Positions 8,373 through 32,074 of a stretch of 64,000 nt of DNA are shown here, in pieces. A model generated the notes under the pieces. That model did not search any database and had not been told where the DNA came from. It saw only the letters and a program-made list of their open reading frames with translations. Source of the DNA: Pedomonas mirosovicensis (GTDB taxonomy: Bacteria; Pseudomonadota; Alphaproteobacteria; Sphingomonadales; Sphingomonadaceae); NCBI RefSeq assembly GCF_022569295.1, contig NZ_JAKFIA010000001.1, positions 2,371,001-2,435,000 of the forward strand, in the 5' to 3' direction. Numbering within the stretch: position 1 is the first letter of the stretch; every line of letters begins with the position of its first letter. Made by a program: the position numbers and the translations under genes.

Positions 8373-9239
8373 TCACGGCAGCTTGGGCAAGGGGCGGCGC
8401 GCGGCATCAAAGCCGTCCCACGGATCGCGCGCGAGCGATGCGAGCCGTTCGGGCATGTTTTCCACGGTAAAGGCATCCGCCCGCACGCCCGCCTCCACCT
8501 CGGCCCATGTAACCGGTGCCGCCACGGCCGCGCCCGGCCGCGCGCGCGGGCAATAGGCCGCAACGGATGTGGTGCCCCGGCCATTTCGCAGATAATCAAT
8601 AAAAATCCGACCCTGACGGCGGTCCTTGGCCGACTGGGCGGTCAGCCGCTCCGGCTCGTCCTCGGCCAGGCGCTTGGAGAAATCCCGCGCGAAGTCCCGC
8701 ACCTGTTCCCACTCCGCCGTGGCATCGAGCGGCGCAATGACATGCAACCCCTTGCCGCCTGATGTCTTGGCAAAGGCGGCCAGTCCCAGATCCTCCAATT
8801 TCTTGCGAAGCAGCAGCGCCGCTGCGGTCACTTCATCCCAGTCAATAGATGGGTCGGGATCGAGATCAAAAATCAGATGATCCGCATGCTCGATGTCATC
8901 GGCCTTTGCCGACCAGGGGTGGATTTCAAGAACGCTCAATTGCACAAGCCCGGCCAAGCCAGTGAAATCGTCAATCACAGGTGCCAGGTCATTGGCCTCG
9001 TCAAGCGTGACAGTGCGAATTCCCTCCGGCAGACTTTGCGCCGCATGTTTCTGGAAAAAGCAGCTTTCGCCGACGCCATCCGGGCAGCGCAACAGCGCCA
9101 GCGGGCGCCCGACGACATGGGGCTCCATCCAGCGCCACACGGCGACATAGTATTCGAGCAAGCCCTGTTTGGTCAGCCCCGTGTCCGGCCACAGCACACG
9201 CTCCGGACTGGTGAGGGAATGGCGGGAGGCATCGGGCAT
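8373..9239 (-). CDS. ligD: LigD-type NHEJ polymerase (stand-alone)
   Basis: 288 residues that make up only the primase-polymerase (LigD-Pol) domain: WPDTGLTKQGLLEYY, LHPWSAKADDIEHADHLIFDLDP with the catalytic D-x-D, KTSGGKGLHVIAPL, and QSAKDRRQGRIFIDYLRN. In bacterial non-homologous end joining this enzyme fills gaps at broken ends held by Ku. The usual ligase and phosphoesterase domains are absent, so a separate ligase must act elsewhere in the genome. Located 51 nt downstream of ku on the same strand, giving a two-gene NHEJ unit inside the stress island. Confidence 0.92.
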   Translation of the reverse strand: MPDASRHSLTSPERVLWPDTGLTKQGLLEYYVAVWRWMEPHVVGRPLALLRCPDGVGESCFFQKHAAQSLPEGIRTVTLDEANDLAPVIDDFTGLAGLVQLSVLEIHPWSAKADDIEHADHLIFDLDPDPSIDWDEVTAAALLLRKKLEDLGLAAFAKTSGGKGLHVIAPLDATAEWEQVRDFARDFSKRLAEDEPERLTAQSAKDRRQGRIFIDYLRNGRGTTSVAAYCPRARPGAAVAAPVTWAEVEAGVRADAFTVENMPERLASLARDPWDGFDAARRPLPKLP

Positions 9240-9290: not shown

Positions 9291-10199
9291 CTACTTGCGG
9301 CCGGAGGCACGCTGCCGGGGAGGACTTTGTGCGACGCTGGCCCTTCGGCCCGCACCGCTGGAGACGCCGCGAGCGCCGGGAACGCCCGAGCCACGCGGGG
9401 AGCCACCCCCGCGGGGTGATCCGCCCCCGCCCATCGTCGCAAGGCTCTGGCGCAGGGCCTCGTAGAGATCGACCACATTGGCGGGCAAGCTGACCGGCGG
9501 CTGGGGCAACTGGCGCCCCGCCTCCTTGGCCTTGATGAGGTTAATCAGCGCCTCTTCATAACGATCAGCGAAGGTTTCAGGCGCGAACGGCGCAGCGCGG
9601 GTTTGAATGATATGGCTTGCCAATGCCACCATCTCGGGTTCGGCCGAAACCTGCTCGACCGTGCTGGCGATCTCATTCAGGTCCCGCACCTCATAATTAA
9701 AGCGCAGCGCGGTCATCACCAGAATGCCGGCGCGCGGTTGCAGCAGCACGGGACGCTCGCGCCGCTGCAAGACAATGCTGCCGAGCCCGGCCATGCCGCT
9801 CACATCCATGGCATCGCGGATCAGCGCGAAGGCCTCCTCCCCCGCGCCGGGCTCGGGCACCAGGGCATAGGCCATGTCGAAATAAAGCGGATCTACTTCC
9901 TCCGGGCGGCAGAAGCTGTGGATATCGATCACGCGCGTCGCCTCAAGCGCGATGGAGTCCAGCTCCTCGTCCTCGATCACCACGTAATCGCCCTCGGCAA
10001 CCTCGTAGCCCTTTACCTGATCCTCAGGCTCGACGGGCTCGCGCGTCTCAGCGTCGATATACAAGCGGCGCACCCGGTTGCCGGTCTTGCGGTTCAACGT
10101 GTTGAAGGAAATGCGTTCTGATTGCCTGACCAGGCTGTGCAATGCCACAGCGCAGGACACCAGGGAGAGCTTCAAATATCCCTGCCAGAGTGCGCGCAT
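9291..10199 (-). CDS. ku: Ku DNA end-binding protein
   Basis: 302 residues from ATG 10199 (GGAGGGAG 5-12 nt before it); the longer reading upstream is not coding. Begins RALWQGYLKLSLVSCAVALH, typical of bacterial Ku, and has the ring-forming core with PVLLQPRAGILVMTALRFNYEVR. The C-terminus is a Gly/Ser/Arg-rich, basic tail (about 265-302), like the extended tails that aid DNA threading in other bacterial Ku proteins. Ku homodimers encircle broken ends and recruit LigD. I found only poor EcfG-like sequences upstream, so stress regulation is not demonstrated for this pair. Confidence 0.93.
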   Translation of the reverse strand: MRALWQGYLKLSLVSCAVALHSLVRQSERISFNTLNRKTGNRVRRLYIDAETREPVEPEDQVKGYEVAEGDYVVIEDEELDSIALEATRVIDIHSFCRPEEVDPLYFDMAYALVPEPGAGEEAFALIRDAMDVSGMAGLGSIVLQRRERPVLLQPRAGILVMTALRFNYEVRDLNEIASTVEQVSAEPEMVALASHIIQTRAAPFAPETFADRYEEALINLIKAKEAGRQLPQPPVSLPANVVDLYEALRQSLATMGGGGSPRGGGSPRGSGVPGARGVSSGAGRRASVAQSPPRQRASGRK

Positions 10200-10412
10200 C
10201 TGTGCTCCCTCCCGGCGTGTTGCAACGCGGCCCGACCACGGGCGCGGCTTGAAGCGGAACAGCACTTTTCCCGAAAAATTCCGCACGAAAAAACTGTCGT
10301 TCCGCCTTTGTCGCGCGGTGATTTTCCTCAACCTTGAAAAGCGCGGCAGCAGGACTCTTGGTTCCGTGAATAATATAGTCAGCTTAGGTTCGTGACGTAC
10401 CGTTATGGCAAC

Positions 10413-10437
10413 GGAACCTTGGATAAAATCTCGCGTT
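10413..10437 (+). promoter_or_regulatory. EcfG-type promoter of glycosyltransferase gene
   Basis: GGAAC (10413-10417), 16-base spacer, CGTT (10434-10437), 60 nt before ATG 10498 and divergent from ku. Confidence 0.75.
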
Positions 10438-10497
10438 TGGATCACGAAGGATCGGCAGTTTTCTCTGCCTCCGCCGTTGTAAAAGGATGAGTCGTCA

Positions 10498-11757
10498 ATG
10501 CCCCTCCTTGAACTGACGCAAACACCGGAATGGGCGGGTTATCCCAAATATTCCGCGGTCATTGGCGTTCCTGTTCATAACGAAGAACATTACATCGCCC
10601 GCAGCTTGAGACTGCTCGATCATCAGATCGATCCGATGGATGATTTTGCGATTGTCTTGCTGCTCAACAACTGCACCGACAGCACGCTGACGGTCGTGCG
10701 CTCGCTGGCGCAGGACCTCAAGCATGACGTTTATGTGTGCGACATTCCCCTGCCCAAAAATCTTGCCCACGCCGGCATGGCCCGCAAGCTGGCCATGGAT
10801 GCGGCCGCGCGGCTGACCGAGCCCCATGGCATCGTGCTTACGACCGACGCCGACGCGGTGGTGGCGGATGACTGGCTGGCGATGACCCGCAAGCATGTGG
10901 CCAACGGCGCAGAAGGCGTCAGCGGCTTCGTGCAGCACAACCCGGCCGAAAAGAACGAATGGCCGCAGGAGTTGAAGGAGCGGACCGACCTGGAGTGCAC
11001 TTACGAGAACCTGCTCGCCGAGCTGTATTCGCTGCTCGACCCCCGGCCGCATAACCCATGGCCGAACCACATGATTACGCTCGGCGCGAGCCTGGCGGCA
11101 ACGCGCGAGGCCTACCAGAAGTGCGGCGGCGTTCCGCCCATTCCCTGCGGGGAGGACCGCGCGTTCATTGCCGCGCTGGAGCGCATCGACGCTAGGGTGC
11201 AGTTCCCGCGCGATGTGGTGGCCTACACCTCCAGCCGTCTTGCCGGACGCGCCGACGGCGGCATGGCCGCCACCCTCAAGGCGCGGGCGAATGACCCCAG
11301 CCTGCCCTGCGACCCGCTTCTCGAGCCGGTGGCCCTTGCCTGCAAGCGCGCTGAATGGCGGCGCACCCTGCGGGACATCTGGCCGGCGGCGCTACCGGCA
11401 GCCTGGGCCCAGACACTGAAAATCGCTCCGGCCCGATTGCGGGCGGCATGGGCCGCGCCCAGCTTCGGGCAGGCGTGGCAGTGCATTGAAGCCGCCAGCC
11501 CGGAACTGGCGCGCCAATGCCTCACCATGGACACGCTGCGTGAGGAACTTCAGAAGCTGGAAGCCCTGGTGGCACGGCTGCGGTTGCAGCAGATCGCCCA
11601 GCAGAACGAGGTCCGACCCGTTGCCAATGGCCAGCGCGTCTCACCCGGATACATGGACCGGGCCGCCAGCGTCGCCGCCAAGGCCGTCGCGGCCACAGCA
11701 ATTGCCAAGCCTCTTGCCGAACCGCCCGCAGCAACCGCGGCCGGCACAACATCCTGA
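10498..11757 (+). CDS. Family 2 glycosyltransferase
   Basis: 419 residues. The N-terminal half is a GT-A fold: VIGVPVHNEEHYIARSL at the nucleotide-sugar site, LLNNCTDST, and a metal-binding TTDADAVV (about residue 120). The GEDRAF segment near residue 215 fits the acceptor-side acidic motif. The C-terminal 150 residues are Ala-rich and helical with no obvious domain. No membrane segment is seen, so it is cytosolic. Sugar and acceptor cannot be inferred. A perfect EcfG promoter and the nearby NHEJ genes place it in the stress regulon; relatives often occur in stress-island clusters. Confidence 0.85.
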   Translation: MPLLELTQTPEWAGYPKYSAVIGVPVHNEEHYIARSLRLLDHQIDPMDDFAIVLLLNNCTDSTLTVVRSLAQDLKHDVYVCDIPLPKNLAHAGMARKLAMDAAARLTEPHGIVLTTDADAVVADDWLAMTRKHVANGAEGVSGFVQHNPAEKNEWPQELKERTDLECTYENLLAELYSLLDPRPHNPWPNHMITLGASLAATREAYQKCGGVPPIPCGEDRAFIAALERIDARVQFPRDVVAYTSSRLAGRADGGMAATLKARANDPSLPCDPLLEPVALACKRAEWRRTLRDIWPAALPAAWAQTLKIAPARLRAAWAAPSFGQAWQCIEAASPELARQCLTMDTLREELQKLEALVARLRLQQIAQQNEVRPVANGQRVSPGYMDRAASVAAKAVAATAIAKPLAEPPAATAAGTTS

Positions 11758-12026
11758 GGCCTTGCCGTCACAAGCGGCGCAGCACTCAGGATCGGCATTT
11801 CGACCGGCCAGTCGGCAACTCTCCGGCTGGCCGGTTTGTTTGGTCTCCAGCGCGCGTCCGCCTTGCCGGACGGGACGCAATTTGCCGCCTCGCGCTCAAT
11901 GAGTGGAGCGACGGCGAGACTCCGTTCGTTTTCTTCAAAGGCGGGCAGCAAGCGCTGAAACGCGGCTTTTGGCCCGCCGCGTGAGTTTGGCGCTTCCCCC
12001 TTTCCCAAAGTCATCAGGAGATGATC

Positions 12027-14234
12027 ATGAGCCAGCGAGACCAATTCGGCGGACAAAAATCAGAAGAACAACGCACCCCTGGATCCACCTCAACCAATCA
12101 GACGCACGGCCACCAGGGCACCTACGGACAGGGCGAGGTCGGCTCCAGCCAGGAAACCCAGAGCCCATCAGGCCTGGGACACAGCTCCGGTTCGCAGGGC
12201 GGATACAGCCACCGTGAGCGCCAGGATCTTGGCTCTCAAAGCGGATCCGAACAATACCGTCAGAGCGGCCATGACGAAGGCTATTCTTCCGGCCGCAGCA
12301 TGGGCGGCGGCGGCACCTTGGGTGGCGGCATGGGCGGCTATGGCCAGGCTGCCGGCAGCTACGGCCAGACTGGCATGAGCGGCTATGGCCAGTCCACGGG
12401 CGGCATCTATGGCGGCGGCACCTCGGGCGAGCGCAGCTCCAGCCAGTTTGGCCAGGGACAGTCGCCGGGCAGCTCGAGCCAGAGCTACGGCCAGGGATCG
12501 CAGTCGGGCTATGGCGGCCATGGCCAGTCTTACGGCAGCCAAGGCTATGGCGGCTATGGCAGCCAGAGCTATGGCGGCATGGGCCAGGGCAGCCAGAACA
12601 CCGGCAGCGCAGGCTACGGCGGCATTGGCGGAACTGGCGGCTATGGTAGCCAGAGCGGCTACGGCGGCCAGAGCCAGGGCTACGGCGCGCTGGGCCAGAG
12701 CCAGGGTCATGGGGCGATCGGCCAGAGCTATGCCACCCAGGGCATTGATGACGGCAGCCGCGGCTACCAGAGCGGCTACGGCAGCTTCAGCCAGGGTGGC
12801 CAGTTTGGTCAGGGCAGCCAGTTCGGCCAGGGCGGCCAGTTCGGAGGGTACGGGAGCCAGGGCTATGGTGGCCAAGGCTACGGCGGCCAGAGCGGCTACG
12901 GCGGAACGCAAGGGAGCCAGAGCAGCCAGAGCAGCTATGGCAACCAAAGCCATCAGGGCGGAAGCCTGAGCCAGAGCACCTACGGTGGCTCGGGCTATGC
13001 CAGCGGCTATGGCGCAGGTTATGGCAGTCAACAGGGCCAGCAGGGCTACGGCGGCCAGGGCGGCTATGGTGGACAAAGCGGCCAGGGCAGCCACGGCGGC
13101 ACCGGCTACGGCAGCCAGCAGGGTTATGGCGGCCTGAGCCAGGCCAGCGGCATCGGTGGCAGCAGCTATGGCGGCCAGAGCTACGGTGGTCAGGGTTACA
13201 GCGGCCAAGGCTACGGTGGTGGCGGCATGGGTTATAGCGGCACCGGCGGCGGCTACAGCGCCGCGAGCGGCTATGGCGGTTCGGGCAGCCCCGGCTACGG
13301 CGGAGGCATGGGCGGTGGCGGCGGCGCCAGCATGGGCGGCTATGGCCAGGGCAGCTACGGCCAGGGCGGCTATAGCGGCAGCCAGGCCGGCCAGGGTGGC
13401 TATGGCTACGGCGGGCTCGGCACCGGCCAAAATTGGCAGAGCCAGAACTATGGCGGCTACAGCCCAGGCTATATGAGCAGCCATGGTATGGGCGGCCAGG
13501 CCCACGGTTATGGCGGTCAGGGCTACGGCGGCCAGCAAGGCTACGGTGGCCAGGGCAGTGATTACGGCACCCAAAGCTACGGCGGCCATGGCGGCCAGAG
13601 CAGCGCTTATGGCAGCCAGGACTACGGCCAAGGCTACGGCGGACAAGGCTATGGTGGCGGTTACGGAGCCCAGAGCTACGGCCAAGGCTACGGCGGCCAC
13701 AGCGGCTACAGCAGCTCCAGCATGGGCGGCGGCACATCGCAGGGCGCCTATGGTGGCCAGCAGACGCCGCGCGGTCATGTCGATGAAGACTACTACCACT
13801 GGCGCGAGAGCCAGCTGAAGGCCTTCGACCAGGACTATGACGAATGGCGCCGGGAGCGCCAGAAGCGCTTCAGCTCCGAATTCGACGAGTGGCGCCGCAG
13901 CCGCTCGCCGTCCTCCACCTCCCTGGGCGCTACCGGCAGCGGGAGCGACCAAGGCACGCTGGGCAGCTCGTCCGGCATGGGTAGCGCCACCGGCAGCAGC
14001 ACGGCGGGCCTGTCGTCGGGCAGCTCCGCAACGGGCAGCCAGTCCTCCGGCGCTTCTGCGAGCGGCATGTCCTCCGACCCGACCGGCTCGCGCGGCCTGG
14101 GCGACGACACCGACACGGGCACCGAGCACAGCGCCGCATCCGGCACCAGCCGGAGCGCCAGCGGCTCACGCAGCGGGTCGGCCTCCGACAAGTCGACATC
14201 CTCGACCAGCCGGGGATCGAGCGAGCGCAAGTAA
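12027..14234 (+). CDS. Giant Gly/Tyr/Ser/Gln low-complexity (prion-like) protein
   Basis: 735 residues; ATG 12027 is chosen because AGGAG (12016-12020) lies 6 nt before it, while ATG 12021 abuts it. Three parts are visible. Residues 1-90 are polar (Gln, Ser, Gly, Glu). Residues about 95-580 are a low-complexity array of SYGGQ, GYGG, YGQ and SQG units with Tyr spaced every 3-8 residues and almost no charge. Residues about 584-630 are a charged aromatic block (YYHWRESQLKAFDQDYDEWRRERQ, then EFDEWRR), a motif I recall in alphaproteobacterial stress proteins, followed by a Ser/Gly/Thr tail. No signal peptide or membrane helix, so it is cytosolic. Composition resembles FUS-type phase-separating domains. 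No EcfG promoter was found upstream. Confidence 0.8.
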   Translation: MSQRDQFGGQKSEEQRTPGSTSTNQTHGHQGTYGQGEVGSSQETQSPSGLGHSSGSQGGYSHRERQDLGSQSGSEQYRQSGHDEGYSSGRSMGGGGTLGGGMGGYGQAAGSYGQTGMSGYGQSTGGIYGGGTSGERSSSQFGQGQSPGSSSQSYGQGSQSGYGGHGQSYGSQGYGGYGSQSYGGMGQGSQNTGSAGYGGIGGTGGYGSQSGYGGQSQGYGALGQSQGHGAIGQSYATQGIDDGSRGYQSGYGSFSQGGQFGQGSQFGQGGQFGGYGSQGYGGQGYGGQSGYGGTQGSQSSQSSYGNQSHQGGSLSQSTYGGSGYASGYGAGYGSQQGQQGYGGQGGYGGQSGQGSHGGTGYGSQQGYGGLSQASGIGGSSYGGQSYGGQGYSGQGYGGGGMGYSGTGGGYSAASGYGGSGSPGYGGGMGGGGGASMGGYGQGSYGQGGYSGSQAGQGGYGYGGLGTGQNWQSQNYGGYSPGYMSSHGMGGQAHGYGGQGYGGQQGYGGQGSDYGTQSYGGHGGQSSAYGSQDYGQGYGGQGYGGGYGAQSYGQGYGGHSGYSSSSMGGGTSQGAYGGQQTPRGHVDEDYYHWRESQLKAFDQDYDEWRRERQKRFSSEFDEWRRSRSPSSTSLGATGSGSDQGTLGSSSGMGSATGSSTAGLSSGSSATGSQSSGASASGMSSDPTGSRGLGDDTDTGTEHSAASGTSRSASGSRSGSASDKSTSSTSRGSSERK
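12300..13770 (+). repeat. Coding repeat array (SYGGQ/GYGGQ units)
   Basis: Imperfect tandem repeats of short units such as ggctacggcggccag encode the Gly/Tyr/Gln/Ser array. Synonymous positions vary (tat/tac, ggc/ggt, cag/caa), so the repetition is held at protein level. Confidence 0.8.
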
Positions 14235-14298: not shown

Positions 14299-14931
14299 AT
14301 GGATGATAACACCCTACTGGATGTCTACCTCGACGAACTGAAGGACATGTGGAACGCCAACGAGCAGATGCGCGACTTCGTGATCGAGATGGCCGATGCC
14401 GCGGGCAACCGCCGCCTGTCCGAACTGCTGAAGGGCGTTATCACCCGTCTGGAGGCCCGCAGCCGCAGCATCCGCGAGCTTCTTGCCAAGCATGGCGAGC
14501 AGGACGAACCAACCCTTAGCATGGCCATGCAGGGGTTGGTGCGCCAGGCGCGCGACGAAGCTCTGGAAAAACCGCTCACCGAGGCCTCGCGCGATGTAGT
14601 GATTATCGCCCGGATCCAACGCATGTCCCATTACTGCATCGCCGCCTACGGCACGGCGCGCGCCCTTGCCGAAGCGCTCGGCCTGAGCGCCGATGCCGAA
14701 ACTCTGTCCACCGACCTCGACAAGGTTTATGCCAGCGACGAATTGCTCACCCACCTTGCCGAAACTGCCATCAACCCCGCCTCCGCCAAGGAGAAAGACA
14801 AGGATGAGGAGGAAGACGACGAGGACGACGAGGCAGATGATTTCAGCCTCGTCGAGGAGAAGGATGGCTTCGACGAGGAAGACATAAACGGCGAAGATGA
14901 GGATGATGAAGACGAGGGGCGCCTGAAGTAA
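14299..14931 (+). CDS. YciF-like DUF892 ferritin-like protein
   Basis: 210 residues. Residues 1-155 match the YciE/YciF (DUF892) family: LLDVYLDELKDMWNANEQM at the start, then helices with RLEARSRSIRELL, ARIQRMSHYCIAAYGTARALAEALG and LTHLAETAINP. The family forms a ferritin-like diiron bundle and is induced by stress. The last 50 residues are almost entirely Asp and Glu, an unusual acidic tail that could bind cations or basic partners. It lies 64 nt after the low-complexity gene, probably in the same transcript. Confidence 0.85.
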   Translation: MDDNTLLDVYLDELKDMWNANEQMRDFVIEMADAAGNRRLSELLKGVITRLEARSRSIRELLAKHGEQDEPTLSMAMQGLVRQARDEALEKPLTEASRDVVIIARIQRMSHYCIAAYGTARALAEALGLSADAETLSTDLDKVYASDELLTHLAETAINPASAKEKDKDEEEDDEDDEADDFSLVEEKDGFDEEDINGEDEDDEDEGRLK

Positions 14932-15037: not shown

Positions 15038-15541
15038 TCAGGACAGAAGGGATTTGAGCATCCAAGCATTCTTCTCGTGCGCGCCGATGCGGCCGATGAG
15101 CATGTCCTCGGTGAACTTGTCCTGCGCGTCCTGCGCGGCATTCGAGAATTCGCGGAACCGCTTCGCCAGCGCCTCATTGTCCGCAATGAGGGCCCGCAGC
15201 ATCTCCTCGGAGGACTTGATGGTGCTTTCCACTTCGATGATGCTGAATTGGCGGAACTCGGCAAACCCGGCCGGAACCGGATAGCCCAGCCCGCGGATGC
15301 GCTCCGCCAGAGCATCAATGGCCTCGTCCAAATCCTCGTACTGTTGCTCGGTCAGCTTGTGGATGCCGTAGAAGTTCGGGCCGACAATGTTCCAGTGCGT
15401 TCCCAAGGTCTTCAGGTACAGGCTGAAGGTATCGGCCACGGCGCGGCAAAGGGCATCCGCCAGTCGGCCGATCATGGCCTGATCGATGCCAGTATCAAGG
15501 GTTTGCACGGTGGCAGTGTGGGTCGGTTCATTGCTGATCAC
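15038..15541 (-). CDS. dps: Dps ferritin-like DNA-protection protein
   Basis: 167 residues starting at GTG 15541; AAAAGGAGT ends 6 nt upstream, so the longer TTG reading is rejected. The signature TLGTHWNIVGPNFYGIHKLTEQQYEDLDEAIDALAERIRGLG carries the ferroxidase residues (His and Asp/Glu) of Dps dodecamers, which oxidise and store iron with peroxide and shield DNA in stationary phase. ARIGAHEKNAWMLKS-like GAHEKNAWMLKS closes the protein. A perfect EcfG promoter at 15600-15624 predicts general stress induction. Confidence 0.93.
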   Translation of the reverse strand: MISNEPTHTATVQTLDTGIDQAMIGRLADALCRAVADTFSLYLKTLGTHWNIVGPNFYGIHKLTEQQYEDLDEAIDALAERIRGLGYPVPAGFAEFRQFSIIEVESTIKSSEEMLRALIADNEALAKRFREFSNAAQDAQDKFTEDMLIGRIGAHEKNAWMLKSLLS

Positions 15542-15599
15542 AGGGCGACTCCTTTTCAGCTTTTTTGTCTTGGGCAAAAGCGCCGTCTCTTGACCGGCT

Positions 15600-15624
15600 A
15601 ACGCGACACATCCGCCCCCGTTCC
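15600..15624 (-). promoter_or_regulatory. EcfG-type promoter of dps
   Basis: Minus strand: GGAAC (complement of 15620-15624), 16-base spacer, CGTT (complement of 15600-15603), about 60 nt from the dps start. Confidence 0.78.
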
Positions 15625-16000: not shown

Positions 16001-17803
16001 ATGGGTGGACCAAGTCATAGGAGCGGCAAGCTGTTGACAACCGCCCTTCACCTCGCGCGCAAGAAGCAGGCTCGCCAGGTCCGCCGCGGACCGGGGCTTG
16101 GGCGCTTGCGCCTGCGGACGCCCCTGCGATCGATCGGCTTTCGCGAGCAACTCACCTTCCTCCTGGCCCTGTCGCTGGCACCGTTCTTCCTCCTTGCGCT
16201 GCTCAATGCCAATCGCGCTTACGATACCTACCGCGACCAGCTTGAGCACACGGTCTTTCTCGCCGCCGAAGTCATCTCGGCCCGCGAGAAATTGTTGCTG
16301 GAAGAAACCCGCCACATGCTGCAGGGCATCGGCGGCGATGCCAAGCTGAACATCGACACGACCGCCTCGACCGCCACGTGCCAGCCCGACATCAGCGCCA
16401 GCCCCTCCATGGCGCCCTACCTGATCGGCTTCCAGGCGATCGATCCGCTGGGACAGACGGTGTGCCGTTATGGCAACGACCTCTCGGTGGAGATCTCGTC
16501 CGAGCGCTTCGCCTTTCGCCAGTCCTCCAGCCTCGTCAGCCTGATGCCGGCCCTGCCGAACCAGCACAGGCCGATCGGCCTTGTGGCCGTGCCCTGGATG
16601 ACCGGCGCAAACGGCGAGACCAGCGGGCAGCTCATCGCGGCCATCGACGCCCGCGCCTTCACAGATGCGGCGGATGATCTGTCCCTGCCCAGCCAGACGT
16701 CCCTCGCGGTCATCGACCGCGAAGGCCATCATCTGACCTTGGCGGGCGACGACCCGGACAGCGTGCAGTGGCTGCCCTCGCAAGCCCTGCTGCCTCTGGC
16801 CGGCAACGCCGTTGCCTCGACGCTGGTGGCGCGAGACGGCAAGGAGCGGCTCTACATCGTGCGGAAATTGGGCGACTCCCAGATGCTGCTGGTGGCCGCC
16901 GCCCCCATTGCCTCGGTGCGGGACATGGCCCTGTTCGTGCTGCTGAGCGGCATCGCCGGGTCGCTTCTCATGCTGGTGCTGATGCTGGGCGCGGTCTGGT
17001 GGCTGTTCCACCACTTCGTGACGCGGCCGGTCGCCAGCCTGGAGAAGACCTTCCTTGCCTACGCCAACGGCAACCTGTCCGTGCGCGCCCGGCCCCAGGC
17101 CCATGCGGCGCGGGAGATCCGCTCCCTCGCCGTCTCCTTCAACCGCATGGCCGGCTCATTCGCCGAGATCAACCAGAACCTGGTGCATGCGGCGGTGCGG
17201 GAACGGGCGCTGCGGCGCGAGCTGCATCACCGCGTCAACAACAACATGCAGATCATCCTCGGGCTGCTGAACCTGGAGGCCCGCGCCGCCAACCGCGAGG
17301 AAGACGTCTCCCAGCTCAACAATCTGATCCAGAGGGTGCTGGCCATCGCCATCGTCCACCGCCGCTTCTACGAGGGGCTGCGAACGGACATGATCGACTT
17401 TACCAGCAGCCTCTCGGACCTGCTGGACCGGCTGCGCGGGCAGGATAACGCCTCGCCGCTGGTGAAGCGCCTGCAAATGAAAGCGGCCTCATGCGAGCTG
17501 CCCATCGACCAGGCGGTACCGCTGGCGCTGCTGGTGTGCGAATGGGTGCGCGCCCTCAATCACATCCACACGGATGAGGCGGTAACCCCCGTGCTCAGCC
17601 TGACGATGGACCGGATCTCCGGCCTCGTCACCATGAAGCTGATCGGAATTGAGGGAATATCCCCGCATGACTATGACGATGTGGAAGACGTAAGCCAGAA
17701 GCTGGTCAATGTGCTGCGAAAGCAGCTCGATCACCAGAGCAAGGGCAGGACGGATTCGCTCTGGGAAATCAACTTCCAGGCGCGCGGGTCCTCCGGGGTC
17801 TGA
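16001..17803 (+). CDS. Membrane HisKA_2-family sensor kinase of the GSR locus (PhyP/PhyK-like)
   Basis: 600 residues: a basic N-terminus, TM1 (about 47-70), a periplasmic sensor of about 235 residues, TM2 (about 308-338), a HAMP-like linker, then a HisKA_2 dimerisation domain with RRELHHRVNNNMQIILGLL (phospho-acceptor H409 or H410). The ATP-binding part looks degenerate: the N-box reads CEWVRALNH with Ala518 where Asn is expected, and no DxGxG box is visible. Such kinases feed or drain PhyR; Sphingomonas PhyP, encoded at the same locus, is a negative regulator. Adjacent to nepR and ecfG. The start is uncertain because no clear ribosome-binding site precedes 16001. Confidence 0.8.
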   Translation: MGGPSHRSGKLLTTALHLARKKQARQVRRGPGLGRLRLRTPLRSIGFREQLTFLLALSLAPFFLLALLNANRAYDTYRDQLEHTVFLAAEVISAREKLLLEETRHMLQGIGGDAKLNIDTTASTATCQPDISASPSMAPYLIGFQAIDPLGQTVCRYGNDLSVEISSERFAFRQSSSLVSLMPALPNQHRPIGLVAVPWMTGANGETSGQLIAAIDARAFTDAADDLSLPSQTSLAVIDREGHHLTLAGDDPDSVQWLPSQALLPLAGNAVASTLVARDGKERLYIVRKLGDSQMLLVAAAPIASVRDMALFVLLSGIAGSLLMLVLMLGAVWWLFHHFVTRPVASLEKTFLAYANGNLSVRARPQAHAAREIRSLAVSFNRMAGSFAEINQNLVHAAVRERALRRELHHRVNNNMQIILGLLNLEARAANREEDVSQLNNLIQRVLAIAIVHRRFYEGLRTDMIDFTSSLSDLLDRLRGQDNASPLVKRLQMKAASCELPIDQAVPLALLVCEWVRALNHIHTDEAVTPVLSLTMDRISGLVTMKLIGIEGISPHDYDDVEDVSQKLVNVLRKQLDHQSKGRTDSLWEINFQARGSSGV

Positions 17804-17850: not shown

Positions 17851-18141
17851 ATGGAACCAAAGGCCAAGAAGCACGTTAAACCAGTGATTGGATCACGGCG
17901 GGTTGGACGGCAAGTGCTCAGTATGGAAGGGCGGGGTCAAAAACTGAAAAAGCTGGAAGGAACGGGCGCTTATTGGGCGTCACGGTCCTCGAAGTATACT
18001 TCCACTTCAGGGCTGGTGAATCGCGTCACGCAGAGCCTCCGGGCTGTCTATGACGATGTCCTCAACGAGCCCATTCCGGAAGAATTTACTGCTTTGCTCG
18101 GCCGCCTCGAGGAGGCCGAGAAGAGTGGTTCGGGCCAATAG
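17851..18141 (+). CDS. nepR: NepR anti-sigma factor
   Basis: 96 residues. The C-terminal half carries the NepR core: VNRVTQSLRAVYDDVLNEPIPEEFTALLGRLE, forming the two helices that clamp EcfG and, under stress, bind phosphorylated PhyR instead. The N-terminal 50 residues are basic and probably disordered, which is longer than the minimal family. It sits 14 nt upstream of ecfG, the canonical order. No EcfG promoter is found directly upstream; transcription may read through from the kinase gene, whose stop is 47 nt away. Confidence 0.9.
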   Translation: MEPKAKKHVKPVIGSRRVGRQVLSMEGRGQKLKKLEGTGAYWASRSSKYTSTSGLVNRVTQSLRAVYDDVLNEPIPEEFTALLGRLEEAEKSGSGQ

Positions 18142-18155
18142 TAGCAGGTGATGAA

Positions 18156-18779
18156 ATGGCATCCAGCTCCGAGCCGGCGCCTAAATTTGATTTTAAATCG
18201 GAGCTTATTTCGGTCCTGCCCCACCTCCGCGCCTTCGCGCGAAGCCTGACAGGCCAGCGAGACGCGGCGGATGACCTGGTGCAGGACGCCCTGACCAAAG
18301 CGTGGGCGTCGCGGGATCGTTTTGAGCCGGGGACCTCCATGAAGGCCTGGACCTTCATGATCCTTCGCAACAGCTACATTTCCCAGATGCGCCGCAGGCG
18401 CTTCACCAGCGATTGGGACGAGGAGCGGGCCGCACGCGTGCTGGTCATTTCCGCCAGCCAGGACGGCAACCTTGAACTCGGCGACCTCCACCGGGCGCTG
18501 CAGATCCTCCCCGAGCAGCAACGCGAGGCCCTCATTCTCGTGGGCGCGGGCGGCCTGTCCTACGAGGAAGTCGCCCAGATCTGCGGCGTGGCCATCGGCA
18601 CCGTGAAGAGCCGCGTGGCGCGCGCTCGCGCAGCGCTCGCCGCCCTTATCGAAAGCGGTAACATCTGCAGCCGCATGGGACAGGACGAAAGCGGTAAGGC
18701 CGAAACGGCGGACGTAATCCTCAACGAGGTAGAGGTGATCGAGAACCGCTACACCGGTACCCGCGCCTCTTCCCGTTAA
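18156..18779 (+). CDS. ecfG: EcfG-family general stress sigma factor
   Basis: 207 residues. Region 2 is present (LRAFARSLTGQRDAADDLVQDALTKAWA, with the DAADDLVQ motif) and region 4 (LPEQQREALILVGAGGLSYEEVAQICGVAIGTVKSRVARARAAL). It lacks sigma regions 1 and 3, as ECF factors do. Bound by NepR in unstressed cells and released by PhyR-P, it directs RNA polymerase to GGAAC-N16/17-CGTT promoters, of which this window holds many. AGGTGA lies about 6 nt before ATG 18156. The C-terminal 40 residues extend past region 4. Confidence 0.93.
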   Translation: MASSSEPAPKFDFKSELISVLPHLRAFARSLTGQRDAADDLVQDALTKAWASRDRFEPGTSMKAWTFMILRNSYISQMRRRRFTSDWDEERAARVLVISASQDGNLELGDLHRALQILPEQQREALILVGAGGLSYEEVAQICGVAIGTVKSRVARARAALAALIESGNICSRMGQDESGKAETADVILNEVEVIENRYTGTRASSR

Positions 18780-21136: not shown

Positions 21137-21913
21137 TTAGGACACGTCGATAGCCTGACCGATGGTCGCCTTGACGACGCGCCGATCGAACGGCTTGGTG
21201 ATGAGGAACGCCGGCTCCGGCCGGTCGCCCGTCAGCAGCCGTTCGGGAAAGGCGGTCAGGAAGATCACCGGAACGTTGAATTGCTTCAGAATATCCGTGG
21301 CCGCTTCCAGGCCGGAGCTGCCGTCCGCCAGCTGGATGTCGGCCAGGATCAGCTCCGGATAACCGGTTTGCGCCAGTTCAATCGCCTCTGTGTGGGTAGA
21401 GGCAACGCCGACCACGCTGTGCCCCAGCTCCTCGATGAGATTCTCAAGGTCCATCGAAATGATCGGCTCATCCTCGATAATGAGGACGCGAAGGGCCGAA
21501 CGCTGATCGATTTCAGCTAACGCAGCGTTGACCAGTTCCTCGATCTCGCTCTCGTCGCGGTCCATGATCTGAGCCGCTTCCTCATAGGTGAAACCCTCGA
21601 GCGTCGTCAGCAGCAGAGCCTGACGGGAATCGAGCGACATTTCCGTCGACCGATAAAGCTGGGGCAAGGAATCGCTGCCATTGACGACCGACCTGTCGCC
21701 AATCTGCATGAAGGTTGACGACAGGATGGTCTGGAACAGACGATAAAGGGTAATCCGCATCTCGTTAGGGCGGCGGAACATGCTGGAGTCCTCGAGTATG
21801 ACTTCCAAGCAGGCCCGCACGAAAGCGTCACCAGCCGCCTGAGTGCCAAGCAGGGCGCGCGCATAGCGCCGCAGATGTGGCAGATGTACTTGAATTTCCC
21901 TGGCTATTGACAT
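21137..21913 (-). CDS. phyR: PhyR general stress response regulator
   Basis: 258 residues from ATG 21913 (MSIAREIQVHLPHLRRYARALLG, the usual PhyR beginning); the longer upstream frame is not supported. Residues 1-135 mimic an ECF sigma factor (sigma2- and sigma4-like parts) and residues 140-258 are a receiver domain with acidic pocket EDEP, phospho-acceptor D192 (LADIQ), T220 and K240. Phosphorylation exposes the sigma-like domain, which binds NepR and frees EcfG. Length and architecture are standard. A near-match EcfG site (21989-22013) suggests autoregulation. Confidence 0.95.
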   Translation of the reverse strand: MSIAREIQVHLPHLRRYARALLGTQAAGDAFVRACLEVILEDSSMFRRPNEMRITLYRLFQTILSSTFMQIGDRSVVNGSDSLPQLYRSTEMSLDSRQALLLTTLEGFTYEEAAQIMDRDESEIEELVNAALAEIDQRSALRVLIIEDEPIISMDLENLIEELGHSVVGVASTHTEAIELAQTGYPELILADIQLADGSSGLEAATDILKQFNVPVIFLTAFPERLLTGDRPEPAFLITKPFDRRVVKATIGQAIDVS

Positions 21914-21988
21914 GTCCCTCTTCGCTTCTTTTTGGCCTGGTTGCTCTCGGCCTTGTCCTGGAAGGACGAAAAGACCCCGCTCGCGTGT

Positions 21989-22013
21989 AACGCTCATCAT
22001 GCCCAAAGGTTGC
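21989..22013 (-). promoter_or_regulatory. Near-match EcfG promoter of phyR
   Basis: Minus strand GCAAC (complement of 22009-22013), 16-base spacer, CGTT (complement of 21989-21992): one mismatch in the -35 element, 76 nt from the phyR start. The surrounding gap (21914-22355, 442 nt) holds no gene. Confidence 0.5.
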
Positions 22014-22355
22014 AAAAAATCGAGATAAGACCTTACGCGCAAAGCAGTTTCGGATACGTAGCTATAAGACTTCTGGAACAACCGAAACTCGGGGCTGCGG
22101 CTTTGTTGCGAAATTCAAACAGGCAAGCCGACACCGCTCAGAATTATACCTTCGAAGCCGGAAAGGCCAGAAGGTAATATGACCTGACTCGCCAGCCCGA
22201 GAACAAAAAACCACGAAATCGCTCGCAGGGATTTTTACGTAGCTTTGCGGTTGCATTAGGGTCGGCTCGACAGCACTATCCCGAAACCTTACGCGAAGGC
22301 GCGCATGATCGCCTTCCTGTGATGTCTTGAAAGAAGGCGAGGGGGAGGAACGATC

Positions 22356-23768
22356 ATGGGCGAAGCGGGCAGCGTTCTGATGGCTGCAGTGGGCGACCTC
22401 AGCATGCACAGCCTGCCCGCGGCGGCGTTGCCCGCGCCCGACGCATGGAGCCTTGCCTCCGATGTCTGGGTCGTTGCCGATCTGCTCATCCTGATCGGTT
22501 TTCTGCTGGCCCTGTTGGCAACGTTCGCGCTCGCGGTCGTGCACGGCCGGGACCATTGGAAATACGTCAGCATCTTTTTTGCAGGCGCCGCACTGTCCTG
22601 CGGATGCGGCCTCATCATCGTTCAGCTTGGCCTTATTCGCGCCAGTGGCCTGCCCCTGTTTCTGCTGCAATGCGCGGCGGGCCTCTTCGCCATGATTTCC
22701 GTGCTGACGCTGTGGCCGGCCCTGGCAGGAGCTGCCGCCACGCCCAACCGGTCATCGGCCCGCCACAATGCCCCCCTCGAACCCGGCCTTCCGTTGCGGA
22801 CAGGCCCGGGCGGGCCACTCAGCCTCGAGGATGCGCTGAGCGGCATCGGCGCCACCATGTTCGCGCGGGGCGAGGATCTCTCGGAGCGCTGGTCCACCGC
22901 CCTGCCCGGGGAGATGGTTGGAGATGCCGCCCTGCCCTCGACCTCCTTCGCCGCGACGCTGAAGGAGAGGATTTCCGCTTCCTTCAGCTCCGCCTTCTCG
23001 AGGAAGGAAGCCGTCGCCACCAATTTCCAGATAGAGGACGCTCGCGGCAACCCGCGCTGGTATGAACTGACCGTTCAGCCCGGCGTCTTTACCGACGGGC
23101 AGCGCGGCGCTGTCGGCTGCCTGTTCGATGTAACCCGCTTCCGCCAGCCGGAGGCCGAATGCCGTTCGCTGCTGCAGGAGGCCACCCACCGGGCCAAGAA
23201 CCTGCTGACCGTCATTCAGAGCGTCGTTCGCATGAGCGCCAAAACGCTCAATCTGCCGCCGGCCACCATCGAGCCCTTCAATGCGCGGCTGCAATCGGTG
23301 GCGCTGGCCTATGATCTTCTGGTGCGGGAGGAATGGGAAGGCGTCGCCCTGCCTGATCTGCTCAGGTCGCAGCTCGGGCACGCCCTGGGCGGCGCGGTTT
23401 CGCGCGCGTCCTGGTCGGGCCCGCCGTTACGGCTGCGCCCCAGCGCGGTTCAAACCCTGGCGCTGGCCTTCCACGAACTAGCTGTCAAGGCCGAGGCCCA
23501 GGGCGCCCTATCCCTTCCCGAGGGAAGCCTGCGGGTCTGGTGGGAAACCGTGTCGCTAAAGGACGGAAGCGAGGGCTACCGCCTCGTCTGGCAGGAAACC
23601 GGCGGCCCGGCACCCGACCAGACCGCCGAGCGCAAGACCTTTTCGCGTGATATTCTGGAGCGGCTGACCCCACGCGGCCTGCGCGGCGAAGTTTCGTCCG
23701 CCTACACGGAAGAGGGCTTCCGCTGGGAAGTCCGGTTTCCCGCCACCAATATCCTGCCCACAAATTGA
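22356..23768 (+). CDS. HWE-type membrane histidine kinase next to phyR
   Basis: 470 residues. Three membrane helices (about 37-60, 69-92, 95-120) are followed by a PAS-like segment (about 165-265), an H-box EATHRAKNLLTVIQSVVR with H278, and a C-terminal ATPase-like domain with the WxE motif at 412-414 (VWQET). The canonical HELATNAxKYGAL N-box reads HELAVKAEAQGAL, so the Mg-ATP Asn is Lys378 and the following Lys and Tyr are also lost. This may make it a phosphatase, a phosphotransfer partner or an inactive scaffold. GGGAGGA precedes ATG 22356. Divergent from phyR, so a PhyR input is likely. Confidence 0.82.
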   Translation: MGEAGSVLMAAVGDLSMHSLPAAALPAPDAWSLASDVWVVADLLILIGFLLALLATFALAVVHGRDHWKYVSIFFAGAALSCGCGLIIVQLGLIRASGLPLFLLQCAAGLFAMISVLTLWPALAGAAATPNRSSARHNAPLEPGLPLRTGPGGPLSLEDALSGIGATMFARGEDLSERWSTALPGEMVGDAALPSTSFAATLKERISASFSSAFSRKEAVATNFQIEDARGNPRWYELTVQPGVFTDGQRGAVGCLFDVTRFRQPEAECRSLLQEATHRAKNLLTVIQSVVRMSAKTLNLPPATIEPFNARLQSVALAYDLLVREEWEGVALPDLLRSQLGHALGGAVSRASWSGPPLRLRPSAVQTLALAFHELAVKAEAQGALSLPEGSLRVWWETVSLKDGSEGYRLVWQETGGPAPDQTAERKTFSRDILERLTPRGLRGEVSSAYTEEGFRWEVRFPATNILPTN

Positions 23769-29791: not shown

Positions 29792-30298
29792 TTAGGGCTG
29801 CTCGATCTTCTCGTATGCCTGGGCATCAACAATGAGGGGGTGGCCATCCTCTACCAGCGGCAGGGATGTCCGGCTCACGCCCCCGTGCAGGCGACGCGGC
29901 TTGGCTTCCTCGAGATACCCCTCGGCCACCAGCTCATCCATGGCCAGGCGATCGTCGTCGCCCGCCAGCTCGGCATGGGAGAAGGCCGTGGCGGCATCCC
30001 GAGCGCGCGGCTCCGCCAGGCGCACCGGGAACCAGCTGCCGTCTCCGCTCACCAGGATGGGGCCGCCCACCCGGTCTTGAAGCTGATCGCCTGGCTGGGC
30101 CTCAATACGCACATAAACCGGCTCGGCCAGCCGGTGAGCGGCCCTGTCCGGCGCGGCAGGCTGAAGGGCTGCATCCACATAGACGCTGCTCCAGCGGCGT
30201 CCAACGGCGCGGTAAAGCGGCATCGGCTTCGTGATGACAAAAGCTTTTCGGGCTGGGGGCAGGGATCGCACGCGGCCGTTCTCCGTTAATTGGGGCAC
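29792..30298 (-). CDS. Hypothetical protein
   Basis: 168 residues from GTG 30298, with ATG 30223 as an alternative. No signal peptide, membrane helix or family signature is recognised. The central part (PVYVRIEAQPGDQL to FPVRLAEPR) alternates hydrophobic residues like a small beta-barrel; the C-terminal half has DDDRLAMDELVAEGYLEEAKP and DGHPLIVDAQAYEKIE. An equally long opposite-strand frame exists; this strand is favoured by its start context and third-codon-position GC. Convergent with DUF4383. Confidence 0.5.
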   Translation of the reverse strand: MPQLTENGRVRSLPPARKAFVITKPMPLYRAVGRRWSSVYVDAALQPAAPDRAAHRLAEPVYVRIEAQPGDQLQDRVGGPILVSGDGSWFPVRLAEPRARDAATAFSHAELAGDDDRLAMDELVAEGYLEEAKPRRLHGGVSRTSLPLVEDGHPLIVDAQAYEKIEQP

Positions 30299-30532
30299 CG
30301 ATCAGAAAAAACCAAGCGATGCGCTGATTTAAAAAGCATCTTCCAGGCACGAGCCGCTGCCGGCTCGCGGGAGATGACTGGCAAAAAATGCACTGGCTGC
30401 TTGTCCGCCACTGAAGAGAACGCTTGGGCAAAGGGTCAGGGGGCGGAAAAAATTCGACAAAAGAGCGGGAACCCCGCCGCGGCAGGGCCCCGATCTTCCT
30501 CAAAACAGGTAGGCGCCAAGCCTGATGGCGGA

Positions 30533-31816
30533 TTATTCGCCGCCGGCCGCAGGAGCTTCGTTGCTGCGCGAGGCCACGGCCGAGCGGGAGGGAGACTTCT
30601 CGGGGAAGCCGTTCAGCACGAGGCCGCGCGTCTTGATGCCGTCGATGAAGGTCTCGAGATAGGCAGGGAGCAAGGTGGAGAAGGCCTGCGAATAACCGTT
30701 GGCCAAAAACACCACGCCCGACTTCTGCCCCGGCACAAGGGCGATTTGCGTGATATAGCCCTGCACGCTGCCGGCGTGCCACACCACCTCAACATCGTTG
30801 ATGTCATAGATGCGCCAGCCGTAGCCATAGCGTGCCGATTTCAGCCGCTCATAACGAGGCCGTCCCCGGTAAAGCTCCTTGGGCGTGTTGACGCGGGGCT
30901 TGTGCACGGTCTCCAGCACATCCTTGGGCAGAACGTTTGGCGCCATCCCCAGCTGGGCCATCAGCCACTTGGCCATGTCGCGGACCGACGCATTGACGCC
31001 CGCCGCCGCCGGCACGCCGTAATAGGGCTCCTTCACCGTGACTTCACGCCAGCGCCCCGGACCGATCCGCACATGGGGGTGCGCCCAGTTGTCGTCCCGC
31101 TTGAGACCGCTCATGCCGATCGAGGCGCGATTCATGTGCAGCGGCGTGAAGATCCGGCGCTGGACCAGTTCGGGATAGGGCACGCCGGTGCGCGCCTCCA
31201 GAATGGGCGCGACCAGGCTGAAGGCAACGTTCTGATAGCCATAGCAGCTGCCCGGCGGGCAGGAGAGCGGAAGCTTGGACAGGCGCGACACGATCTCGGC
31301 CGGGGGCACCCCCGCCTCCAGCAAGTCATCATAGGCATTGGGCGGCAAGCCCACCCGGTGACTGAGCAGGTCGCCAACCGTCACGTTGTTCCGCGCCGGG
31401 CCCAGGGACACCTTGGGCAGCACCTGCCGAACGGGCGTGGACCAGTCGACATACTGCTCCTTGACCATCAGGCCAGTCAGACTGGAGGCAAAGGCCTTGG
31501 ACAGAGATGCAAGGCGAAAGATGGTCTGGTCGTCAACCTTGCCGCCGTTCAGGCTGCGCCGGCCATAGCCCTTCACCAGCGAGAGGCGGCCATTGTCCAC
31601 AATCGCCACGGCAATGCCTGGAAAATCCCCTTCGGCCACCTTCTCGCGCAGGAAACGATCGAATGCGGCAACGCGGGCATCCGTTGCAGGATCGGGCTGG
31701 CCGGAATCAAGCGCGACCAGACGCGGGGGCTGCTCGGCGGGGCCCGCGTGTGCCGGCGCGCCCGCAGCCACGCCAATGGCCAGCAAGGACGCGCACGCCA
31801 GCGACCGGGCGATCAT
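30533..31816 (-). CDS. Exported serine beta-lactamase-like hydrolase (class C type)
   Basis: About 427 residues from ATG 31816, chosen so the product begins with the signal peptide (IARSLACASLLAIGVAAGAPAHA); starts at 31825 and 31885 are alternatives, the latter with a better ribosome-binding site. Active-site SLSK (RLASLSKAF), the YxN motif in CYGYQN, and HAG (VVWHAGSVQG) in place of KTG are present. This set marks class C beta-lactamase-fold enzymes, which include esterases and D-peptidases; HxG variants are more often esterases or peptidases than true lactamases. Substrate unknown. Periplasmic. Confidence 0.87.
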   Translation of the reverse strand: MIARSLACASLLAIGVAAGAPAHAGPAEQPPRLVALDSGQPDPATDARVAAFDRFLREKVAEGDFPGIAVAIVDNGRLSLVKGYGRRSLNGGKVDDQTIFRLASLSKAFASSLTGLMVKEQYVDWSTPVRQVLPKVSLGPARNNVTVGDLLSHRVGLPPNAYDDLLEAGVPPAEIVSRLSKLPLSCPPGSCYGYQNVAFSLVAPILEARTGVPYPELVQRRIFTPLHMNRASIGMSGLKRDDNWAHPHVRIGPGRWREVTVKEPYYGVPAAAGVNASVRDMAKWLMAQLGMAPNVLPKDVLETVHKPRVNTPKELYRGRPRYERLKSARYGYGWRIYDINDVEVVWHAGSVQGYITQIALVPGQKSGVVFLANGYSQAFSTLLPAYLETFIDGIKTRGLVLNGFPEKSPSRSAVASRSNEAPAAGGE

Positions 31817-32074
31817 CCGGCCCATTCCCCCTCGTATATCCCCACTGTTGTGGCCCGCCGACAGCCGCAGCCTGCTGCGTCGCATCACATCCCTGCCCTT
31901 GCCTTGGAACTGCAACAGGGTACAGGAACTTTTCGGCAAATGCCAAGTCCCGTTCAACGCTTTAAAGCACAGCTGAACGCAAACCACGCAGCAGAACAAC
32001 CCGGCTCTGCAACAAAATCCAGAATAAAAGGACTAGTAACCGAAACGATCAAAGCTCCGGGGGAACAGTCTTGA

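Follow-up and report, generated by a model that had tools for sequence, protein, structure and literature searches.

Pedomonas mirosovicensis encodes a 735-residue protein in which a long, nearly uncharged tract of Gly, Ser, Gln, and Tyr precedes a short, highly charged aromatic block. Judged by its conservation in other genomes, this C-terminal block, rather than the tract, is the anchor of the protein, and we have named it the WR helix. The gene adjoins a complete PhyR-NepR-EcfG general stress locus together with genes for LigD, Ku, and Dps, and on balance we favor, with modest confidence, the view that its product is a cytoplasmic, general-stress-induced scaffold that self-assembles. The 64,000-nucleotide stretch of DNA analyzed here is termed the window, and its features are given in Table 1.

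Table 1. Features of the window, and of related loci where indicated, with positions in nucleotides.
Feature	Position	Strand	Remarks
LigD primase-polymerase domain	8373..9239	-	Stand-alone
Ku	9291..10445	-	Listed ORF probably overextended at 5' end
GT2 glycosyltransferase	10498..11757	+	Upstream of the 735-aa gene; perfect EcfG motif at 10413-10437
Terminator-like hairpin	11802..11836	+	Between the GT2 gene and the 735-aa gene
Candidate EcfG promoter	11905..11930	+	One mismatch (GGAGC-N17-CGTT); 96 nt upstream of ATG
Ribosome binding site	12016..12020	+	AGGAG, from sequence
CDS of FUS-like protein	12027..14234	+	735 aa; ORF plus AGGAG with 6-nt spacer
Lead, residues 1-95	12027..12311	+	Polar, 18% charged, no signal peptide
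G/S/Q/Y tract, residues 96-581	12312..13769	+	486 aa, 1.4% charged, 60 evenly spaced Tyr
WR helix block, residues 582-626	13770..13904	+	45 aa, 51% charged, three 15-residue repeats; single helix predicted for residues 587-626
Ser/Gly/Thr-rich tail, residues 627-735	13905..14231	+	109 aa, 35.8% Ser, last 25 residues net +3
DUF892 ferritin-like gene	14299..14931	+	Directly downstream of the 735-aa gene
Dps	15038..15577	-	Perfect EcfG motif starting at 15624 (-)
PhyK-like HisKA_2 histidine kinase	16001..17803	+	
NepR anti-sigma factor	17851..18141	+	
EcfG-type sigma factor	18156..18779	+	
PhyR response regulator	21137..22081	-	
HWE kinase	22356-23768		
PRC-barrel gene, L128	9586-10080		Directly after WR gene
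PRC-barrel gene, L130	9378-9881		Directly after WR gene
PRC-barrel gene, L138	9281-9811		Directly after WR gene
PRC-barrel gene, L139	8631-9224		Directly after WR gene

Support for the coding frame comes from the conserved C-terminal block, which is read in that frame. A second in-frame ATG occurs at 12021, but position 12027 is the better start because it is separated from the AGGAG by a 6-nt spacer, whereas 12021 touches it. An antisense ORF of 653 aa (12168-14129) mirrors the GGC, AGC, and CAG codons of the gene. An earlier, sequence-only reading of this DNA had described a protein of this length with a low-charge tract followed by a block of charged and aromatic residues and a tail rich in Ser, and this three-part architecture was borne out. 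Scans of the full protein against Pfam and NCBIfam returned no matching model.

The tract is 40.3% Gly, 16.0% Ser, 14.8% Gln, and 12.3% Tyr, with charged residues making up only 1.4%. Its 60 Tyr in 486 residues amount to one per 8.1, and its aromatic residues are evenly spaced, with a spacing CV of 0.506 as compared to 0.908 +/- 0.107 in shuffled sequences (0 of 2000 shuffles were as low). YG dipeptides numbered 50 versus an expected 24.2 +/- 3.6 from shuffles, and adjacent aromatics, expected 8.6 times, were absent. The regular Tyr spacing and FUS-like composition claimed in the sequence-only reading are therefore real. A PAPA-type score, which is not an assay, exceeded 0.05 in 80% of scoring windows over residues ~1-576. 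No second protein of this kind was found when the genome was searched with a piece of the tract.

The low-complexity domain of the human condensate-forming protein FUS offers a close comparison, having 27 Tyr in 214 residues and an effect on phase separation that depends on the number of Tyr and not on their position (PMC5704491). The window tract is of the same type, i.e., uncharged, with Tyr distributed through Gly, Ser, and Gln; it carries 49 [GS]Y[GS] motifs at a similar Tyr density, and an Arg-bearing region likewise lies C-terminal to it. The RRM, zinc finger, and RGG regions of FUS are absent from the bacterial protein, which matched no Pfam model and whose sequence shows no RGG; its tract is more than twice as long and richer in Gly, and it has a conserved aromatic helix instead. 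A phmmer search of PDB sequences gave no match to the FET family, a test limited by the correction for composition bias, and no Pfam domain pointed to such homology. The best reading of this analogy is that the window protein may work like the FUS low-complexity domain without being homologous to it.

The history of the tract was approached through its codons. A tandem repeat search detected short, imperfect arrays only. Identical tetrapeptides had 58.7% of codons in common versus 62.0% after codon permutation, and for nearby copies the values were 54.1 and 62.1%, respectively. Since codon sharing did not exceed that of the permutations, recent DNA duplication was ruled out as the way in which the units, and with them the tract, arose. 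AGC accounts for 82% of Ser codons as compared to 36% in neighboring genes, which suggests that the tract originated by expansion of GC-rich DNA repeats. The sequence-only reading had taken codon variation among the units as a sign of selection on the protein sequence. The scatter of codons does support a peptide pattern that is old and has been retained; however, given the AGC skew, codons by themselves do not prove selection.

The WR helix is built of three 15-residue repeats with the pattern D.DY..WR..R...F, which in the window protein read DEDYYHWRESQLKAF, DQDYDEWRRERQKRF, and SSEFDEWRRSR, and none of 20000 shuffles matched this internal repeat. In the alignment of the block, D, Y, R, D, Y, F, and R did not vary, and W, D, F, W, and R hardly did. 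Nine positions were hydrophobic in 32 of 32 sequences, with a hydrophobic period of 3.7, and AlphaFold predicted a single helix (residues 12-51) in a 71-residue segment, with high pLDDT over the core. The block had no match in Pfam, NCBIfam, or PDB, and a Foldseek search of PDB with the helix gave no fold match, as one might expect for a lone helix. We infer from its amphipathic, aromatic pattern that the helix most likely self-associates; the AlphaFold model, a single helix on its own, is not direct evidence on oligomers.

Searches with this block did recover relatives. It occurred in 9 of 61 nearby genomes, that of the window included, and a profile search identified it in 94 of 401 Sphingomonadaceae genomes (29 of 96 genera), i.e., about three quarters of those sampled do not have the gene. 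A single-sequence scan of genome contigs found no relatives, but an alignment-based scan did, among them many Sphingomonas loci. The helix was also present in 6 of 385 genomes sampled across the Alphaproteobacteria and in 8 of 399 sampled across the phylum; the latter extend its range to one family beyond the Alphaproteobacteria. A locus from a Xylophilus MAG, presumably betaproteobacterial, has the same architecture (L034). No phage relatives were found, and repeated plasmid searches returned the same two records only.

Across 138 WR-helix proteins, the N-terminal tract averaged 9.8% Tyr, 18.5% Gly, and 1.9% Ile, Leu, and Val combined; nearly all owners of the helix have such a Tyr/Gly-rich tract, mostly charged and disordered as judged by composition. 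The window protein shares both traits, i.e., the 15-residue repeat block and a Tyr/Gly-rich, Ile/Leu/Val-poor tract, and its tract is the longest and least charged of the family. Most Sphingomonas members have charged Tyr/Gly/Arg/Asp tracts, and one scanned member has SWFGD and DUF2171; other members are without DUF2171 and end in a Ser-rich tail. The closest architectural matches are G494 (L168), a ~423-aa protein from another alphaproteobacterial family that joins a tract of GYGQSGYGQGG type to the WR helix and a tail of Ser and Arg, and the plasmid-borne Gemmobacter aquarius WP_159082556.1; both have the same three parts as the window protein. Four loci from one Sphingomonadaceae genus (L011, L124, L126, and L127) have Gln/Gly-rich versions. 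By the PAPA-type score, the tracts of the window protein and G494 were positive, and most of the family scored negative. Since most WR-helix proteins are highly charged in the tract, the family has no conserved requirement for a tract that is uncharged and FUS-like. What the sequence-only reading missed is that conservation centers on the Trp/Tyr/Arg helix, and that the tracts of most members are of a charged Tyr/Gly kind.

The tree of the short helix was poorly resolved. Low-charge tracts fell in more than one branch, requiring at least two changes, and the window protein grouped weakly with members outside the Sphingomonadaceae. The annotated SWFGD/DUF2171 proteins of that family (NF033157, PF09939) resemble it in having the WR helix and a Tyr/Gly-rich N-terminal tract, many with an EcfG promoter. 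They differ in that the window protein has neither SWFGD nor DUF2171, has a longer, uncharged tract, and carries a helix that clusters, weakly, outside the Sphingomonadaceae. Repeat number varies as well, with longer WR arrays in another alphaproteobacterial family (L169, L170, L171, and L172). At one locus (L125, 8601-8831, - strand frame), only the WR block and tail are open and the expected Gln/Gly tract is missing upstream, due to either truncation or assembly collapse. Our literature search on SWFGD and DUF2171 found no functional study of the family, nor an experiment on any member.

This diversity bears on whether the tract has a role of its own. Conceivably, the WR helix, with the tail or a PRC-barrel partner, is the working part and the tract a passive disordered spacer, enlarged by slippage of DNA repeats in a few lineages. 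The range of tract charge (4 to 51%), the wide range of length, the AGC and GGC codon skew pointing to repeat expansion, and the PRC-barrel genes adjoining WR genes in several genomes are all in keeping with it. However, Tyr and Gly stay high and Ile, Leu, and Val low throughout the family, Tyr is evenly spaced, the peptide pattern was kept while synonymous codons were scrambled, and low-charge tracts occur in more than one branch, so we regard a passive tract as unlikely.

Regulation of the family was assessed from its promoters. Ku and Dps-like genes of Sphingomonas melonis are EcfG-dependent, and the EcfG promoter of that bacterium is GGAAC-N17-20-GTT, mostly within 100 bp of genes (PMC6599016). 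A strict form of this motif lay upstream of 35 of 119 WR family genes versus 0.6 in shuffles. The perfect motif lay within 200 bp upstream of 55 of 138 genes, many of them from related Sphingomonas and so not independent, versus ~2 on average for permuted motifs, the few high counts among which came mainly from permutations overlapping the true site. Perfect sites were situated at -69 and -74 for the Gemmobacter and G494 genes, respectively. The motif was absent upstream of three members outside the Alphaproteobacteria, which fits the confinement of EcfG to that class (PMC3892343). For the window gene itself, the candidate site has one mismatch, and an equally good site occurs in 11.5% of random 300-nt stretches. 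A scan for sigma-70 promoters found no site, and comparison of a family promoter with the S. melonis EcfG table yielded no match.

Gene context points in the same direction in other genomes, also of other families, where the WR gene lies beside LigD, Ku, and an EcfG-like sigma factor (L171), an EcfG-like sigma factor (L172), PhyR (L168), or Ku and LigD (L131 and L132). The stress island proposed in the sequence-only reading is real, and with the enrichment of EcfG motifs across the family and the complete PhyR-NepR-EcfG locus near the window gene, the link to stress is stronger than that reading could have known. At five loci (L128, L130, L138, L139, and L129; Pfam-confirmed in three), the WR gene is directly followed by or next to a PRC-barrel gene, and one is found near it in Gemmobacter; this suggests that WR and PRC-barrel proteins form a pair, perhaps comparable to the DUF2171 fusion of other members. 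An SDR-like neighbor (w26490, ~30% identity) was matched at many loci but was set aside as a generic paralogue match and not synteny. Within the window, two HisKA_2/HWE kinases, one of them PhyK-like, flank the NepR, EcfG, and PhyR genes. No ligase-domain gene was seen beside LigD, while in L171 both pieces adjoin Ku. The DUF892 protein has a strongly acidic C-terminal tail of ~45 Asp/Glu-rich residues, which might partner with proteins that are basic or rich in Arg, and a 594-aa open reading frame (30290-32074, +) has no Pfam match.

The general stress regulation of the family and the stress-island neighbors, taken with extreme hydrophilicity and an absence of hydrophobic segments, would also suit a desiccation or osmotic protectant, i.e., an abundant hydrophilic gel or glass former in the drying cytoplasm that needs neither specific clients nor liquid condensates. 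LEA-type protectants, however, as a rule carry much charge and little Tyr, and both the even spacing of Tyr and the strong conservation of the aromatic helix point to specific cohesion and oligomerization; we therefore consider a simple protectant rather unlikely.

An exported adhesive or surface protein, akin to silk or a glycine-rich wall protein, is very improbable. Such a composition of Gly, Tyr, Ser, and Gln resembles that of extracellular structural proteins, a glycosyltransferase is encoded upstream, and a distant protein with two WR-type units (L173, 8485-9093, - strand frame) has a clear signal peptide, from which the WR module may also occur outside the cytoplasm. Yet hydropathy is low throughout the window protein, with no signal peptide or hydrophobic stretch, L173 is the only one of the family proteins examined by hydropathy to have a signal peptide, and no secretion system was present among the nearby window genes scanned. 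With relatives at hand and no export signal seen, two findings that would have spoken against the sequence-only reading did not materialize; its observation is confirmed and its interpretation partly supported.

For the self-assembling scaffold that we favor, release of EcfG from NepR by PhyR would lead to transcription of the WR-helix family by EcfG. The WR helix, with its three aromatic repeats and hydrophobic period of ~3.7, would then serve as an oligomerization handle, and the ~65 evenly spaced aromatic stickers of the 486-residue tract, set in a Gly/Ser/Gln spacer, could cause the oligomers to cohere into condensates or a gel. Arg residues of the helix are likely partners for Tyr of the tract, and the Ser-rich, mildly basic tail might provide hydration or client contact. 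Together with Dps and Ku, the assembly would protect or organize the cytoplasm or nucleoid of the stressed cell. Since the low-complexity domain of FUS can age into gels and fibrils too, the window protein need not form liquid droplets. A bolder proposal, which we hold to be quite unlikely, is an alphaproteobacterial compartment resembling stress granules, in which the EcfG-induced scaffold condenses around the nucleoid with Dps and Ku and lineage-tuned tract charge sets the material state.

The prion-like domain of Clostridium botulinum Rho is of the Asn/Gln type and resides inside an enzyme, whereas the window tract is of the Gly/Tyr type in a stand-alone stress protein. Bacterial prion-like low-complexity regions are on record (PMC4703818, PMC6400439), as are stress condensates of Dps and HU, with DNA-linked condensation at times of stress an established strategy (PMC10906006). 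The window protein resembles the latter in its stress setting and in having Dps as a neighbor; however, Dps is a folded DNA-binding dodecamer and the window protein has no known DNA-binding domain. What is new is the pairing, under general stress control, of a Tyr/Gly tract with a conserved aromatic helix. If the proposed role is true, bacteria have dedicated low-complexity scaffolds of their own, regulated by stress, that correspond to the FUS-type ones of eukaryotes, and a widespread group of proteins now annotated merely as SWFGD, DUF2171, or hypothetical would gain a function. The family also offers, on one and the same helix, a natural range of tracts that runs from no charge to one-half charged residues, by which the rules for stickers, spacers, and charge are testable in a tractable organism.
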